Shown here: piece after piece, positions 53,526 through 59,539 of the stretch | Layout of the letters: each line of letters opens with the position of its first letter | Numbering within the stretch: the stretch's first letter is position 1 | NCBI GenBank assembly: GCA_903870245.1 | Contig: CAIQCB010000002.1 | Coordinates: 1 to 64,000 of the forward strand | Direction of reading: 5' to 3' | DNA length: 64,000 bases | DNA from: an uncultured Methylocystaceae bacterium | Lineage (GTDB): Bacteria; Pseudomonadota; Alphaproteobacteria; Rhizobiales; Beijerinckiaceae | Position numbers and translations under genes: made by a program | The notes under the pieces: model-generated | What the model was told of the DNA's origin: nothing | The model's database searches: none | What the model saw: the letters and a program-made list of their open reading frames with translations, nothing else

Positions 53526-54395
53526 ATGTCGAAAAATCATACAGGCATCATGAACCCTAAAGCGCTTTATCATTTAGTCCGGCTCGTTATTGGCGCCGTT
53601 GCGCCGATGACGGTCGCGGCGCTCGCGGGCCCCGGACTCGCCATGGGCACGGCTCAGGCCGAAACGATCAAGGCGCGTTATGCGCTGAGCCTGATGGGAC
53701 TGCCGATCGGCGCGGCTTACGCTAATGGCGTGCTGGAGCAAAGGAATTATCGCATCGATATTGGCATGCGGACTTCGGGGCTCGCAAACCTCGTCAATAA
53801 TTCTAAGGGCGCGGCCTTTGCGACGGGCGGCCTCTCGACGGCCGGGGTGGCGCCGACGAGCTACTCGAATACGACCCAGAATAACGACGAAACGCGCACC
53901 GTGCGCATGGCGCTCGCCGCAAACGCCGTGCGCTCTGTTGAGGTGAAGCCGCCGCCCTGGGACGCGGACGAGCGCGTGCCGGTCGACGAGAGCGCAAGGA
54001 AACATGTGCTCGACCCGGTCAGCGCGCTCATTATCAGCGTTCCGCCGGGCGAGGAATTGATCGGACCGGCGGCCTGCAATCGCAACATTTCCGTCTTTGA
54101 CGGCGTCACCCGATTCGATGTCTCCCTGTCCTACGCAGGCGAACAAAGCGTTGAGGTCAAAGGCTATTCCGGACCAGTCGTGGTATGCTCTGCGCGTTAC
54201 ACGCCGATCGCGGGACATCGGCCGGACAGCCCCTCAACCCGCTACATGGCGAATAATCACGAGATCAATGTCTGGCTCGCGCCTCTGCCTGAAGCCCATG
54301 TCGTCGTGCCGTTTCATATTCATATCGGCACGGCTGCGGGGCCGTTGGTTATCGACGCCGCTGATTTTCAGGTGAGCCAAAAGCGTACGCCCTGA
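53526..54395 (+). CDS. DUF3108 domain-containing exported protein
   Basis: 289 residues; the ATG at 53526 is used, with 53550 (MNPKALYHLVRL) as an alternative. A hydrophobic signal runs VRLVIGAVAPMTVAALAGPGLAMG, with a likely cut near AQA-E. The mature protein is beta-rich: IKARYALSLMGLPIGAAYANG, IDIGMRTSGLANLVNNSKG, then FDVSLSYAGEQSVEVKGYSG, VVCSARYTPIAGHRPDS. These match DUF3108, a periplasmic beta-barrel/LolA-like unit of unknown function. It is 16 bases after the cysteine-cluster gene. Confidence 0.8.
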   Translation: MSKNHTGIMNPKALYHLVRLVIGAVAPMTVAALAGPGLAMGTAQAETIKARYALSLMGLPIGAAYANGVLEQRNYRIDIGMRTSGLANLVNNSKGAAFATGGLSTAGVAPTSYSNTTQNNDETRTVRMALAANAVRSVEVKPPPWDADERVPVDESARKHVLDPVSALIISVPPGEELIGPAACNRNISVFDGVTRFDVSLSYAGEQSVEVKGYSGPVVVCSARYTPIAGHRPDSPSTRYMANNHEINVWLAPLPEAHVVVPFHIHIGTAAGPLVIDAADFQVSQKRTP

Positions 54396-54499
54396 CACTC
54401 CTCAGGAGTCGATCCAGCCGCGCTGGTATCCGAAAGATTACTTGTCAAAATTAGAGCATTCAGGGGTTATAGTTGTTTGTTTAGTAGCATTTAATTCAC

Positions 54500-54523
54500 C
54501 GAAGCGGTTTCCGCTTCGTTTAA
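54500..54523 (+). terminator. Hairpin with T tract downstream of the DUF3108 gene
   Basis: CGAAGCGG (54500-54507), TTT loop, CCGCTTCG (54511-54518), then TTTAAA. It lies about 105 bases after the DUF3108 stop and could end its transcript. The flanking AT-rich region (54440-54500) shows no gene. Confidence 0.55.
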
Positions 54524-54650
54524 ACGCTCACCTCCAAAGGCTCCCGCGTTCAGCGACTGAACAGGAACACGTAAGCCGTCCGGGGCTCACAGAGACATGA
54601 GCGCTGCGACCTCGGAGCGCAAAAGACCCATAACCTGACTGTCGTCACGG

Positions 54651-55052
54651 TCAGTTGATCGACACTTCTTTTGTTACGCGGCGGTTGCGACGGTCCGAGC
54701 CGAATTCGAGATAACGAATTTCTGTGGGTTCGGCGCCTTCTCGCAAACAAAAGGAGGGCCTTGGCGAAAAGCCGCCTGTCGGATTTTCGAAACATTCAGT
54801 GAATTGTAATTCGCACTGAAACTGCGTTTCAACCTTCGGAGCCGCGCGCGCCGCCACGGCGCGGGCTTTGTCGACGGCTTGCGCGCAGGTCGCCTGATCG
54901 ACGCCCCAGGCGCGGCAGTCGCTCAACGTCGACATATATTTGCCGTTCTGGGCGCAGGCGGGGCTCTTACCGCGCAAGGCGTAAAAAGCGGAGAAACCAA
55001 CTGCGGCGACGGCTGCGACAATAAGTATTGATTTCAGGGGCGAAGAAGCCAT
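54651..55052 (-). CDS. DUF1190-like (YgiB-type) membrane-anchored protein
   Basis: 133 residues from the ATG at 55052. One N-terminal transmembrane helix or signal anchor (ILIVAAVAAVGFSAFYAL), then a cysteine-rich domain: MSTLSDCRAWGVDQATCAQA, VDKARAVAARAAPKVETQFQ and CELQFTECFENP, with SFCLREG. The paired cysteines separated by an Ala-rich helix and AP are reminiscent of DUF1190 proteins (YgiB family). The similarity is from memory of the pattern and is not strong. Confidence 0.6.
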   Translation of the reverse strand: MASSPLKSILIVAAVAAVGFSAFYALRGKSPACAQNGKYMSTLSDCRAWGVDQATCAQAVDKARAVAARAAPKVETQFQCELQFTECFENPTGGFSPRPSFCLREGAEPTEIRYLEFGSDRRNRRVTKEVSIN

Positions 55053-55449
55053 GACTGCTCGCTGAACGTTGATAACGAAACGGTTCCGGGAACTTAAATA
55101 GTGCGGGCACGGTAAAAGGCCACCCGTCTCCGGGCGCTTCGGGCGGTGGTGTGGCTTGACAATGATTAGGTCATCCAATACCCAATCTCCACCGCTTCCT
55201 GATATCAAAATCAATCAGGTTTTGATATATTCATGACGTAAGAAGCGGGTCGAGCCGATAATCGCGCCGACGAGTTCAGGCATTGAGAGTGTGGCCTGAG
55301 CTGGAAACCGACGGGACGTCCATTTGGATAAAACCCGTCATACCGCTCTTACTGATGTCGATGTCCTTTCAGGCGGCAAACCGCCGAAAGAGTGACACAT
55401 CGCGATCCTTTAACAGGGCGCGAGACCTAAGTTGATCCAGGAGGAAACA
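55053..55449. other. Long leader or promoter region of the 37-residue membrane peptide
   Basis: About 400 bases with no gene. It contains an inverted repeat (55202-55228), a TTGACA hexamer at 55156-55161 with no convincing -10 partner, and a small dyad GGCGG-CAAA-CCGCC (55373-55386). It ends in an AGGAGGAA ribosome site at 55439-55446. Confidence 0.5.
55202..55228. promoter_or_regulatory. Perfect 9-bp dyad, possible operator
   Basis: ATATCAAAA (55202-55210) and TTTTGATAT (55220-55228) are exact complements spaced by 9 bases. AT-rich in GC-rich surroundings, located 220-250 bases upstream of the membrane peptide gene and about 150 bases upstream of the DUF1190-like start. It looks like a dimeric repressor/activator site. 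Confidence 0.4.
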
Positions 55450-55563
55450 ATGGGTGCTATTCTCGAACTGACCAGCTACGCTTCCACCCCGACCGGCATG
55501 ATCGCCATCATCGCCATCGGCGCAGTGGCCTATTTTGCTGCCCGCTGGGTTTTCACTGACTAA
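55450..55563 (+). CDS. 37-residue single-span membrane peptide
   Basis: ATG at 55450 preceded by an ideal AGGAGGAA at the correct distance. The peptide begins MGAILELTSYASTPTG and continues with a hydrophobic helix MIAIIAIGAVAYFAARWVF, ending in TD. It has one transmembrane segment with a Trp/Arg belt near the C-terminal end. It is followed after 26 bases by a strong terminator, so it is its own short transcription unit, probably abundant. I recognise no family. Size and build recall small subunits of membrane enzyme complexes or light/redox proteins, but this is only a resemblance. Confidence 0.7.
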   Translation: MGAILELTSYASTPTGMIAIIAIGAVAYFAARWVFTD

Positions 55564-55588
55564 GTTAGTCGAAATTCTCGGTTCATTT

Positions 55589-55621
55589 CGCGACGCGCCT
55601 CAAACGCGTCGCGTTTTTTTT
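55589..55621 (+). terminator. Strong rho-independent terminator of the membrane peptide gene
   Basis: A perfect 9-bp stem, CGCGACGCG (55589-55597) with CGCGTCGCG (55605-55613), encloses a 7-nt loop and is followed by eight T. It lies 26 bases past the peptide's stop. Confidence 0.9.
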
Positions 55622-55779
55622 GTCGACAGCGACCCGCGACAAAACCGCCTGCTTGGCGGAGAAATGACATTCACCGCCAATACTATTGGGTGGGGCCCAA
55701 AGGTTCTGCCGGCGGAGACAGTTGCCGAAACGGCGATTCTCGCGAATAATCCTATTTGCAAATGATCCCGGTCGATTGA

Positions 55780-55799
55780 AGCAGCCCGGCCGGGCTGCT
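55780..55799. promoter_or_regulatory. Perfect 20-bp palindrome in the leader of the LuxR regulator
   Basis: AGCAGCCCGG followed by CCGGGCTGCT, with no spacer, ends 18 bases before the regulator's ATG and directly ahead of its AGAGGG ribosome site. It could be an operator (for example autoregulation) or form a hairpin that hides the ribosome site. Confidence 0.5.
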
Positions 55800-55817
55800 G
55801 GCGGGGCAGAGGGAAAA

Positions 55818-56606
55818 ATGCCAACAACCCCTTCGGTCAGGAGCGTCGACAAGCGACCCGAATCTGCGCGCACGACTGGCGCCGCCGGGTCGGGCGATGC
55901 GCCACAGGCCATCGATCCCATCGATGTCGCTGTCGTCGACAAGAGTCCCCTGATTTTGGCCGGTCTCGAAAAGCTGCTGTCCGACGACCAACGCTTCAAT
56001 CTGGTTTTTAAGGCTACCGACGGCGAGGAGTTTCTGGAGTCGGCGCGACTGCATAAATTCGCGATCGCCGTGATTGGCTGGCAATTGCCGACCATCCACG
56101 CCCGCGATGTGCTGCGCGCCTTGTCACGTCAGATTTCCGCGCCAAAAATCGTTGTTTATAGCGGAACAAATGATCCCGCCGCGCCGGCCGAGACCCTGCA
56201 ATTGGGAGGCGCCGGTTTTGTTTCCAAGCGCGCTCCCCCCGAACGGCTGCTCGATGTCCTTGCTTCGGTGGCGGCGGGAGACATGGTTTTTCCCTTTGTC
56301 GATATCCGCAAAATGCGCAGCGATCCTCTCGACAACCTTACCTTGCGAGAGCGCAGCCTGTTGTCGGCGCTGGGTTCGGGCCACACCAACAGCCAGTTGG
56401 CGAAGGACTTTGGCGTGTCGATCAACACTATCAAATTTCACCTGCGCAATCTGTTCGAGAAGCTCGACGTCCGCAATCGCTCTCAGGCGATCGCCCTGTT
56501 TCTGGAGACGAAACATGGCTCCTGGTCGGGCGGCGGCGTTAGCCGCGCTCTTGACGGCCCGCCTTCCGGCGCGCGCGGGCGCAAGACTCATGGGCGGCCA
56601 GAGTAG
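55818..56606 (+). CDS. LuxR-family response regulator with degenerate receiver
   Basis: 262 residues from the ATG at 55818 with AGAGGG upstream. After a disordered first 35 residues, a receiver-like domain (about 36-150) begins DVAVVDKSPLILAGL. The usual acidic pair is Asp41-Lys42, and the position of the phospho-accepting Asp is Gly87 (AVIGWQLP), so ordinary phosphorylation is unlikely. The Ser/Thr (YSG) and Lys (FVSKRAP) switch residues remain. Residues 172-229 are a complete LuxR HTH: LTLRERSLLSALGSG, NSQLAKDFGVSINTIKFHLR. A Gly/Ser-rich tail follows. It is next to the membrane peptide gene. Confidence 0.88.
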   Translation: MPTTPSVRSVDKRPESARTTGAAGSGDAPQAIDPIDVAVVDKSPLILAGLEKLLSDDQRFNLVFKATDGEEFLESARLHKFAIAVIGWQLPTIHARDVLRALSRQISAPKIVVYSGTNDPAAPAETLQLGGAGFVSKRAPPERLLDVLASVAAGDMVFPFVDIRKMRSDPLDNLTLRERSLLSALGSGHTNSQLAKDFGVSINTIKFHLRNLFEKLDVRNRSQAIALFLETKHGSWSGGGVSRALDGPPSGARGRKTHGRPE

Positions 56607-57518: not shown

Positions 57519-59196
57519 CTACATGTTCGGGTAATTGGGGCCGCCGCCGCCCTCCGGGGGAACCCAGGTGATGTTTTGCGCCGGGTCCTTGATGTCGCAT
57601 GTTTTGCAGTGCACGCAATTCTGCGCGTTGATCACGAAACGCGGGTCGCTTTTCGCCGCTTCATCCGCATAGACAACTTCATAGACGCCGGCCGGGCAAT
57701 AAAGTCTTGCCGGTTCGCCGTAAACAGGAAGGTTGTCGTCGATCGGTATTGAGGGATCGGCCAGCCGCAAATGCACAGGCTGGTCCTCCTCGTGATTGGT
57801 GTTTGAGACAAAGACAGAGGAAAGCTTGTCGAACGCTGGTTTCGCTGTCAGCCGGGCGTAAACGATCGGAGTCACCTCCGAGAGCGGTTTCGTCGCCGCA
57901 TGATCCGGCTTGCCGTGCGAGAGGGTGCCGAAGATGGAGAAACCAAACAATTCGTTGGTCCACATGTCGAGGCCGAACAGTGGCGCGCCGAGATAGGTGC
58001 CGTATTTCGACCAGAGCGGCTTGACGTTTCGCACGGGTTTCAGATCGCGGCCAATATCCGAAGACCGCCATGCGTCTTCATAGGCGCGCACTTCGTCATG
58101 GGCACGGCCTTCGGCCAGCGCCGCCGCGACATGGTCGGCCGCGAGTAGGCCGGAGAGAATCGCATTATGCGATCCCTTGATGCGCGGCACATTCACAAAG
58201 CCTGCCGCACAGCCCAATAACGCTCCGCCGGGGAAGGTCAGCTTGGGCACGCTCTGCCAACCGCCCTCGGTCAGCGCGCGCGCCGTAAGCGATGCGCTCC
58301 CCGCCTTCCAGCGTCGGCGCAATTTTGGGATGCGATTTGAAGCGCTGAAATTCGTCGAAAGGCGACAGAGTCGGGTTCGGATAGTTGAGATGCACAACGA
58401 AGCCGATGGAGACCAGATCGTCGTCGAAGTGATAGAGGAAGGAGCCGCCGCCTGTGTCTGACGCCAGCGGCCAGCCGAAAGAGTGCTGCACCAATCCGGC
58501 CTTGTGCTTTTCTTTTGGAATGCGCCATAGCTCCTTGAAGCCGATGCCGAATTTTTGTGGTTCGCGATCCTTAGAGAGATCATATCTCGCGATCGCCTGC
58601 TTCGAGAGCGATCCGCGCGCGCCTTCGGCGAACAGGGTGTATTTGCCGCGTAACTCCATGCCGCGCGTAAAACTGTCTTTTAGTTCGCCATCGCGACCAA
58701 CGCCCATGTCGCCGGTGGCGACGCCGACGACCTCGCCCTTGTCGCCATATAGAATTTCGGCGCCGGCGAAGCCGGGATAGATCTCGACGCCCAGGTTTTC
58801 GGCTTCGCTGGCCAGAAAGCGCACGACATTAGCCAGCGACCCGATAAAATTACCGTGGTTGCTCATCAGCTTCGGCATCAGGAAGTTGGGCACGCGCAAG
58901 CCGCCGGTTTCGGTGAGGACCAGAAACTGGTCGTCATGGACCTGCGTTTTCAGCGGCGCATCATCGCGCGATCGCCAATCGGGCAACAAACGATCGAGGC
59001 CGATGGGATCGATCACCGCGCCGGAGAGAATATGCGCGCCGGGCTCTGAGCCCTTCTCGACGACGACGACCGAGAGATCGGGCGAAATCTGTTTCAGCCG
59101 AATCGCTGCGGCGAGGCCGGCGGGGCCGGCGCCAACGACCACCACGTCGTAATCCATGCCCTCGCGCGGCGGAAGCTCCCTTGCGTCTTCAGTCAT
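57519..59196 (-). pseudogene. Electron transfer flavoprotein-ubiquinone oxidoreductase, interrupted by a 2-nt frameshift
   Basis: Two overlapping frames together make the full enzyme. From 59196 the N-terminal frame reads VVVVGAGPAGLAAAIRLKQ (FAD) and GAHILSGAVIDPIGL and runs in homology to ERIAYGAR. The continuation ALTEGGWQSVPKLTFPGG is in another frame, to the stop at 57519. That part has the 4Fe-4S cysteines in CPAGVYEVVYAD and NCVHCKTCDIKDP. Homology joins if 2 bases are restored in the CG tract at 58274-58283. The gene would then be 1680 nt, 559 residues, the normal size. It passes electrons from ETF to ubiquinone. Either a real mutation or an assembly error. Confidence 0.88.
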
Positions 59197-59303
59197 CGCC
59201 TAACCCTTAACCCTTGATTGTCGAAACATGGCTCATAATAGCCCCTGGCCCTGCCCATGCCAAAAGAGAAAAGCGGGCGAAGCGCCCTAAACAGGACTGT
59301 CTT

Positions 59304-59363
59304 GCCTTTTTCCTCGCCTTTTTCCTCGCCTTTTTCCTCGCCTTTTTCCTTGCCTTTTTCCCG
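59304..59363. repeat. 12-bp tandem repeat, five units
   Basis: The 12-mer GCCTTTTTCCTC is repeated from 59304: three perfect copies, then two with changes (ending CCTT and CCCG). It lies upstream of the ETF-QO start. On the minus strand it would code a run of Glu-Lys-Gly units. Confidence 0.85.
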
Positions 59364-59539
59364 GGCGAGGCTGGCCAAAAGCCTCTACTTCGACGTCGGC
59401 CGGAGAAAAAGCTTTCACGCGCGCCTGGATTTTGCCGCAAGGGGCCCGATGAATGAGCCCTGGCGAGGGGACAGGAGGTTGACCCCTCTGCGGGTCGCGA
59501 CATGTTAAGTTTTGTTATCTAAAATTGGGACCGGGACAA
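59364..59539. other. No gene seen
   Basis: Between the repeat and the next small gene there is nothing recognisable; frames that cross it in both directions (59193-59378 on the minus strand, 59214-59508 on the plus strand) are products of the repeat. Altogether 59197-59539 has no supported gene. Confidence 0.4.

Follow-up and report, generated by a model that had tools for sequence, protein, structure and literature searches.

A small membrane peptide that annotation can miss co-occurs with the copper methane-oxidizing enzyme in alphaproteobacterial methanotrophs

Copper membrane monooxygenases have gained proposed subunits that were absent from their classical ABC description. AmoX, AmoY and AmoZ of archaeal ammonia monooxygenase are small membrane proteins that are exclusive to carriers of the enzyme and were proposed as accessory subunits, their genes being linked to amo genes in streamlined genomes and the proteins co-migrating with the complex (PMC10030591). 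The particulate methane monooxygenase (pMMO), for which the same study gives 14-15 membrane helices per protomer, has a long-overlooked accessory protein of its own, PmoD, which has a signal peptide, a periplasmic copper domain and a membrane helix and is encoded within many pmo operons (PMC6189053). A figure legend further names an ‘unidentified helix’ in the Methylocystis pMMO crystal structure 4PHZ (PMC8098663; strain Rockwell, genus from PMC6189053), to which no identity is given; gammaproteobacterial pMMO structures lack this extra helix, a point that we did not use as evidence. Single-span accessory subunits of fewer than 50 residues, such as CydX and KdpF, stabilise larger membrane enzymes. 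The peptide described here is also under 50 residues with one membrane-spanning helix, but its proposed client is different, it is a membrane part alone and it is encoded away from the pmo genes, and no biochemistry exists for it. Its sequence relatedness to AmoX, AmoY and AmoZ was not tested.

We analysed a 64,000-nucleotide window (positions 1 to 64,000 of contig CAIQCB010000002.1, assembly GCA_903870245.1) from the 3.2 Mb genome of an uncultured Methylocystaceae bacterium. We take its genus to be Methylocystis: of 41 named loci found by a pattern scan, those named to genus are Methylocystis, Methylosinus and Methylocapsa, the plasmid hits are Methylocystis, and 29 of 37 genomes of the genus carry PmoA. 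A preliminary description of the sequence had proposed an independent, well-expressed transcription unit for a 37-residue membrane peptide, with an ideal ribosome site, one transmembrane helix with a Trp-Arg end, a perfect 9-bp terminator and a 400-base leader. We find that this observation holds, with corrections to the leader and the expression claim. The ribosome-binding site AGGAGGAA lies at 55439-55446 (+), three bases before the ATG at 55450, and the 37-codon frame occupies 55450-55563 (+) with a TAA stop at 55561-55563. The intrinsic terminator (55589-55621, +) comprises a perfect 9-bp stem (55589-55597 / 55605-55613) followed by eight T, with 25 bases between stop and stem. Elsewhere in the window, at 59193-59503, frames with a short repeated Glu-Lys-Gly type unit on the minus strand form a likely tandem repeat beside a flavoprotein-like gene (named by eye).

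AlphaFold2, run with 28 aligned rows, predicts a short helix (residues 3-11), a Thr-Pro turn and a second helix (residues 14-36) with a mean pLDDT of 94.5; the GRAVY index is 1.08 and the Arg-Trp end is Arg32-Trp33. Predicted average masses are 3861.5 for a common Methylocystis form and 3799.5 for a Methylosinus form, plus 28 if formylated or about 131 less without Met. The peptide belongs to no described Pfam or NCBIfam family above the curated cut-offs, the best scores being Pfam PGF-CTERM at 13.5 against 18.8 bits and NCBIfam PGF_CTERM at 16.3 against 24.5. A Foldseek search of the PDB returned no match at E ≤ 10, as expected of a lone helix, and no chain of this sequence is in the PDB copy searched, although pMMO entries close to Methylocystis by PmoA match are present (4PHZ, 3RFR, 7S4M, 3CHX and 9CL5) and the library leaves out chains of unknown residues. 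The literature, in which we consulted PMC8098663, PMC9445010, PMC7584546, PMC10030591, PMC3615186, PMC7994243, PMC6189053 and PMC11931723, showed no description of this peptide, although one in further pMMO structure papers is not excluded. As far as these searches show, it represents an undescribed small-protein family.

Absence of the frame from related genomes had been set out in advance as a result that would overturn the gene assignment, and the opposite was observed. Full-length copies (E ≤ 1e-13) are in 36 of 37 genus genomes, the window's own included, whereas the 24 genomes of other families of the order give nothing better than E 0.19. Of 61 copies read, 58 are 37 residues long, one 38, one 42 and one open at a contig end. 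Residues M1, G2, L5, T13, P14, G16, R32 and W33 are invariant in the 29-row alignment. Among 34 distinct sequences of 41 Methylocystis/Methylosinus main copies, variable sites are 8/5/30 at codon positions 1/2/3 and pN/pS is 0.098. The conservation of the ribosome site and the terminator, likewise proposed beforehand as a check, was also examined: GGAGG stands within 18 bases of the start in 55 of 61 copies read and in 41 of 41 Methylocystis/Methylosinus main copies, and a permissive script found a stem with a T-rich tail in 40 of those 41 (the miss is a contig end), but not clearly in Methylocapsa. The match bears no annotated feature in the three plasmid records that hold it, among them M. 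parvus pMpar-2, although this plasmid gene table is incomplete. Together, these data establish a real gene under purifying selection.

A sigma70-like promoter is present at 55156-55184 (+), with TTGACA at 55156-55161, a 17-base spacer and TACCCA at 55179-55184, the -10 element of the window itself being weak. The pattern CTTGAC[AG]-N15-17-ATA recurs at -272 to -331 in 43 of 43 Methylocystis/Methylosinus main loci scanned, and a TTGACC-N18-TATAA, picked by eye among TTGAC matches, at -253 to -299 in 8 of 8 Methylocapsa loci. The 400 bases taken previously as a leader are the non-coding gap, and the conserved promoter implies a leader of about 260 bases (55191-55449, +), its start being inferred from the promoter. 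We saw no expression data for this gene, and ‘well-expressed’ is not shown. The segment 55190-55460 folds at -103 kcal/mol, far better than 200 shuffles (z -5.9), its function being unknown, but cross-species support for one structure is thin, with 5 of 35 predicted pairs showing a change on both sides in 14 Methylocystis leaders. An Rfam search over 54300-56000 returned only isrK at E 0.12 (20.3 against a gathering score of 50), which we rejected as chance. In Methylosinus OB3b, the most prominent pmoC transcription start is at -274 with a sigma70-like promoter, with a further possible start at -324 (PMC3615186); the similar length of the peptide's leader is suggestive only.

We next asked which genomes carry the peptide. 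In a sample of 298 family genomes, it is in 45, belonging to three of 43 genera, and these include all 41 with PmoA (PF02461; Fisher p 3e-46, which ignores kinship). Two hits were dropped before this count (E 0.008 and E 0.04) because they are partial matches inside longer frames of 358 and 97 residues. Of the 257 genomes without a PmoA hit, four have the peptide, all Methylocystis, and three of these have PmoC copies: the window's own genome and two others (G016 and G022, each with one copy), whereas the fourth (G007) has no PmoC hit. The window's own assembly has no PmoA hit but carries a nearly full pmoC (its contig C35, 71650-72342) and a contig that begins inside a pmoC-like gene (C3, 1-135; a sub-threshold match), as expected of a repeated pmo operon that was probably lost in assembly. 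In the denser sample of 37 genus genomes, 28 of 29 PmoA carriers have the peptide; the exception (G029) is 64% complete and for that reason did not alter our assessment. All eight genus genomes without a PmoA hit have the peptide, of which five have a PmoC hit (the window's genome, G001, G016, G022 and, as a fragment at a contig end, G027). The other three, G007 (98% complete), G014 (73%) and G019 (77%), are small Methylocystis genomes (1.4-2.1 Mb) with neither PmoA nor PmoC hit, for which assembly loss and true loss were not distinguished. The peptide is thus found in nearly every relative that carries pMMO and not in the relatives from genera without it.

This relationship also holds inside a single genus of 15 genomes, which holds Methylocapsa acidiphila and M. 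aurea and includes Methylocella. A profile search finds the peptide in 10 genomes, exactly those with PmoA, and in none of the five without it; a weak match in G099 (E 0.012, with a stop) was not counted. None of the five has a PmoC hit, and four of the five carry PF02332 diiron monooxygenase genes, which none of the ten does, so the link is to pMMO rather than to such oxidation in general. Counts of genomes are not independent events. A glnA tree of 29 genomes (a 30th, G226, gave no match at the threshold used, and the window genome was labelled a carrier) needs 4 changes of pmo presence, at least 3 of them forced by well-supported branches, and the five genomes lacking pmo nest among carriers. 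The peptide gene was not seen adjacent to pmoA, the nearest main copies lying about 9, 13 and 27 kb away (G303, G162 and G250, respectively).

Downstream of the peptide lies a LuxR/NarL-type regulator gene (55818-56606, +; start at ATG 55818 assumed) with Pfam matches to Response_reg (8.1e-14) and GerE (4.5e-14). It is found at E ≤ 1e-45 in exactly the same 45 of 298 genomes as the peptide. In 17 of 17 loci that we picked for measuring, it lies downstream on the same strand, the ATG nearest its matched part being 228-605 bases from the peptide stop. Canonical two-component receivers carry a phospho-acceptor Asp, which is replaced by Gly (in IGW.LP) in all 17 orthologues aligned. The protein is therefore a candidate regulator with a non-phosphorylation input, tied to pMMO by occurrence, and the earlier suggestion that it may control the peptide is strengthened, although such control is untested. 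No motif shared between the peptide promoter and seven pmoC upstream regions was found, the best words being no better than shuffled controls.

Several Methylocystis and Methylocapsa genomes have extra copies of the peptide, at least two on plasmids (M. parvus and strain MJC1), beside cold-shock genes, transposases or unrelated genes. Thirty neighbouring proteins, which we chose for scanning, gave no pmo or copper-enzyme family, and no copy was found in viral contigs or phage records. Weak hits led to a homologous sister peptide of 37-39 residues, mostly beginning MCDGEG, that shares TP-x-G and the Arg-Trp end (hhalign probability 97.6, E 3e-12). In 15 of 15 loci examined, it has a MerR gene on one side and MerT, MerP and MerA genes on the other; domain matches were confirmed for one of them (L199, peptide at 1747-1863). 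Position 2 is Cys in 14 of the 15 (Ser in L223), and one locus (L227) has a changed C-terminal half. These 15 are of 18 genomes with a clear match (E ≤ 1e-12) among 397 family genomes, 17 Methylocystis and one Methylosinus; most weaker listed matches are the pMMO-type peptide, and one (E 5e-4) is inside a 314-residue frame. In the plasmid collection, the sister was found in two M. rosea records only, mer operons without it not having been counted. The peptide family thus seems to belong to pMMO methanotrophs, with one branch recruited into their mercury operon.

The preliminary reading of the peptide as a subunit of, or regulator for, a membrane complex is partly supported and can now be made specific. 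We favour, with moderate confidence, an unannotated small-protein gene of alphaproteobacterial pMMO methanotrophs whose product is a lineage-specific accessory subunit. In this view, the short interfacial helix, the Thr13-Pro14-x-Gly16 turn and the membrane-spanning helix, ending in Arg32-Trp33 and usually Asp37, most likely sit beside PmoA/PmoC and stabilise or pack the pMMO trimer in the membrane; the peptide would be made from its own promoter as a single-gene transcript, may be the unidentified helix of 4PHZ, and has in the LuxR protein a genetic companion that is probably a regulator of the same pMMO programme. Our analysis demonstrates a conserved gene under purifying selection, its co-occurrence with pMMO, promoter-like and terminator-like elements and linkage to luxR, whereas transcription and translation, binding to pMMO, identity with the unassigned helix and the role of LuxR are inferences, neither co-purification nor fit to the density having been assayed here. 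The exceptions among genus genomes, the lack of linkage to pmoA and the mercury branch weigh against this view, and co-occurrence does not separate pMMO from the intracytoplasmic membranes that house it.

The mercury sister and the unrelated surroundings of the extra copies keep alive a possible, though less likely, alternative in which the peptide is a general membrane helper of these methanotrophs (membrane insertion, sorting to or curvature of intracytoplasmic membranes) that has pMMO as its main client and MerT as another and is not a stoichiometric subunit; its very strict length and eight invariant residues instead suggest a specific binding surface. We consider it doubtful that the peptide is a signalling partner of LuxR, reporting membrane, copper or pMMO status so that LuxR adjusts pmo expression. 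The identical distribution, constant order and strand, and the receiver without its acceptor Asp agree with such a role, but a terminator-like stem lies between the genes in Methylocystis/Methylosinus, extra peptide copies show no luxR nearby (no match in L058-L060, L062, L063, L067, L069 and L072), and no promoter motif is shared with pmoC. A membrane-acting toxin or stress peptide (type I toxin-like) would suit the size, single span, own promoter, structured leader and plasmid copies, but is very unlikely given the co-occurrence with pMMO, the strong purifying selection and the absence from viral contigs and phage records. A more far-reaching possibility, which we regard as unlikely but which our data do not exclude, is that the peptide is the missing fourth subunit of alphaproteobacterial pMMO and the unassigned helix in its structures, encoded far from pmoCAB and missed by annotation, that the LuxR protein is an unrecognised regulator of the pMMO programme, and that the mostly Cys-bearing sister is a mercury-inducible isoform that protects or replaces it.

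pMMO loses most of its activity on isolation, and unidentified protein components have been proposed as a reason (PMC6189053). The peptide has one Arg and no Lys, so trypsin would yield hardly any usable fragment, which could explain why routine proteomics missed it. A conserved peptide and a regulator that follow pMMO with few exceptions, yet lie outside the pmo operon, are direct candidates for these unidentified components, and they may also be needed in attempts to move alphaproteobacterial pMMO into other hosts.
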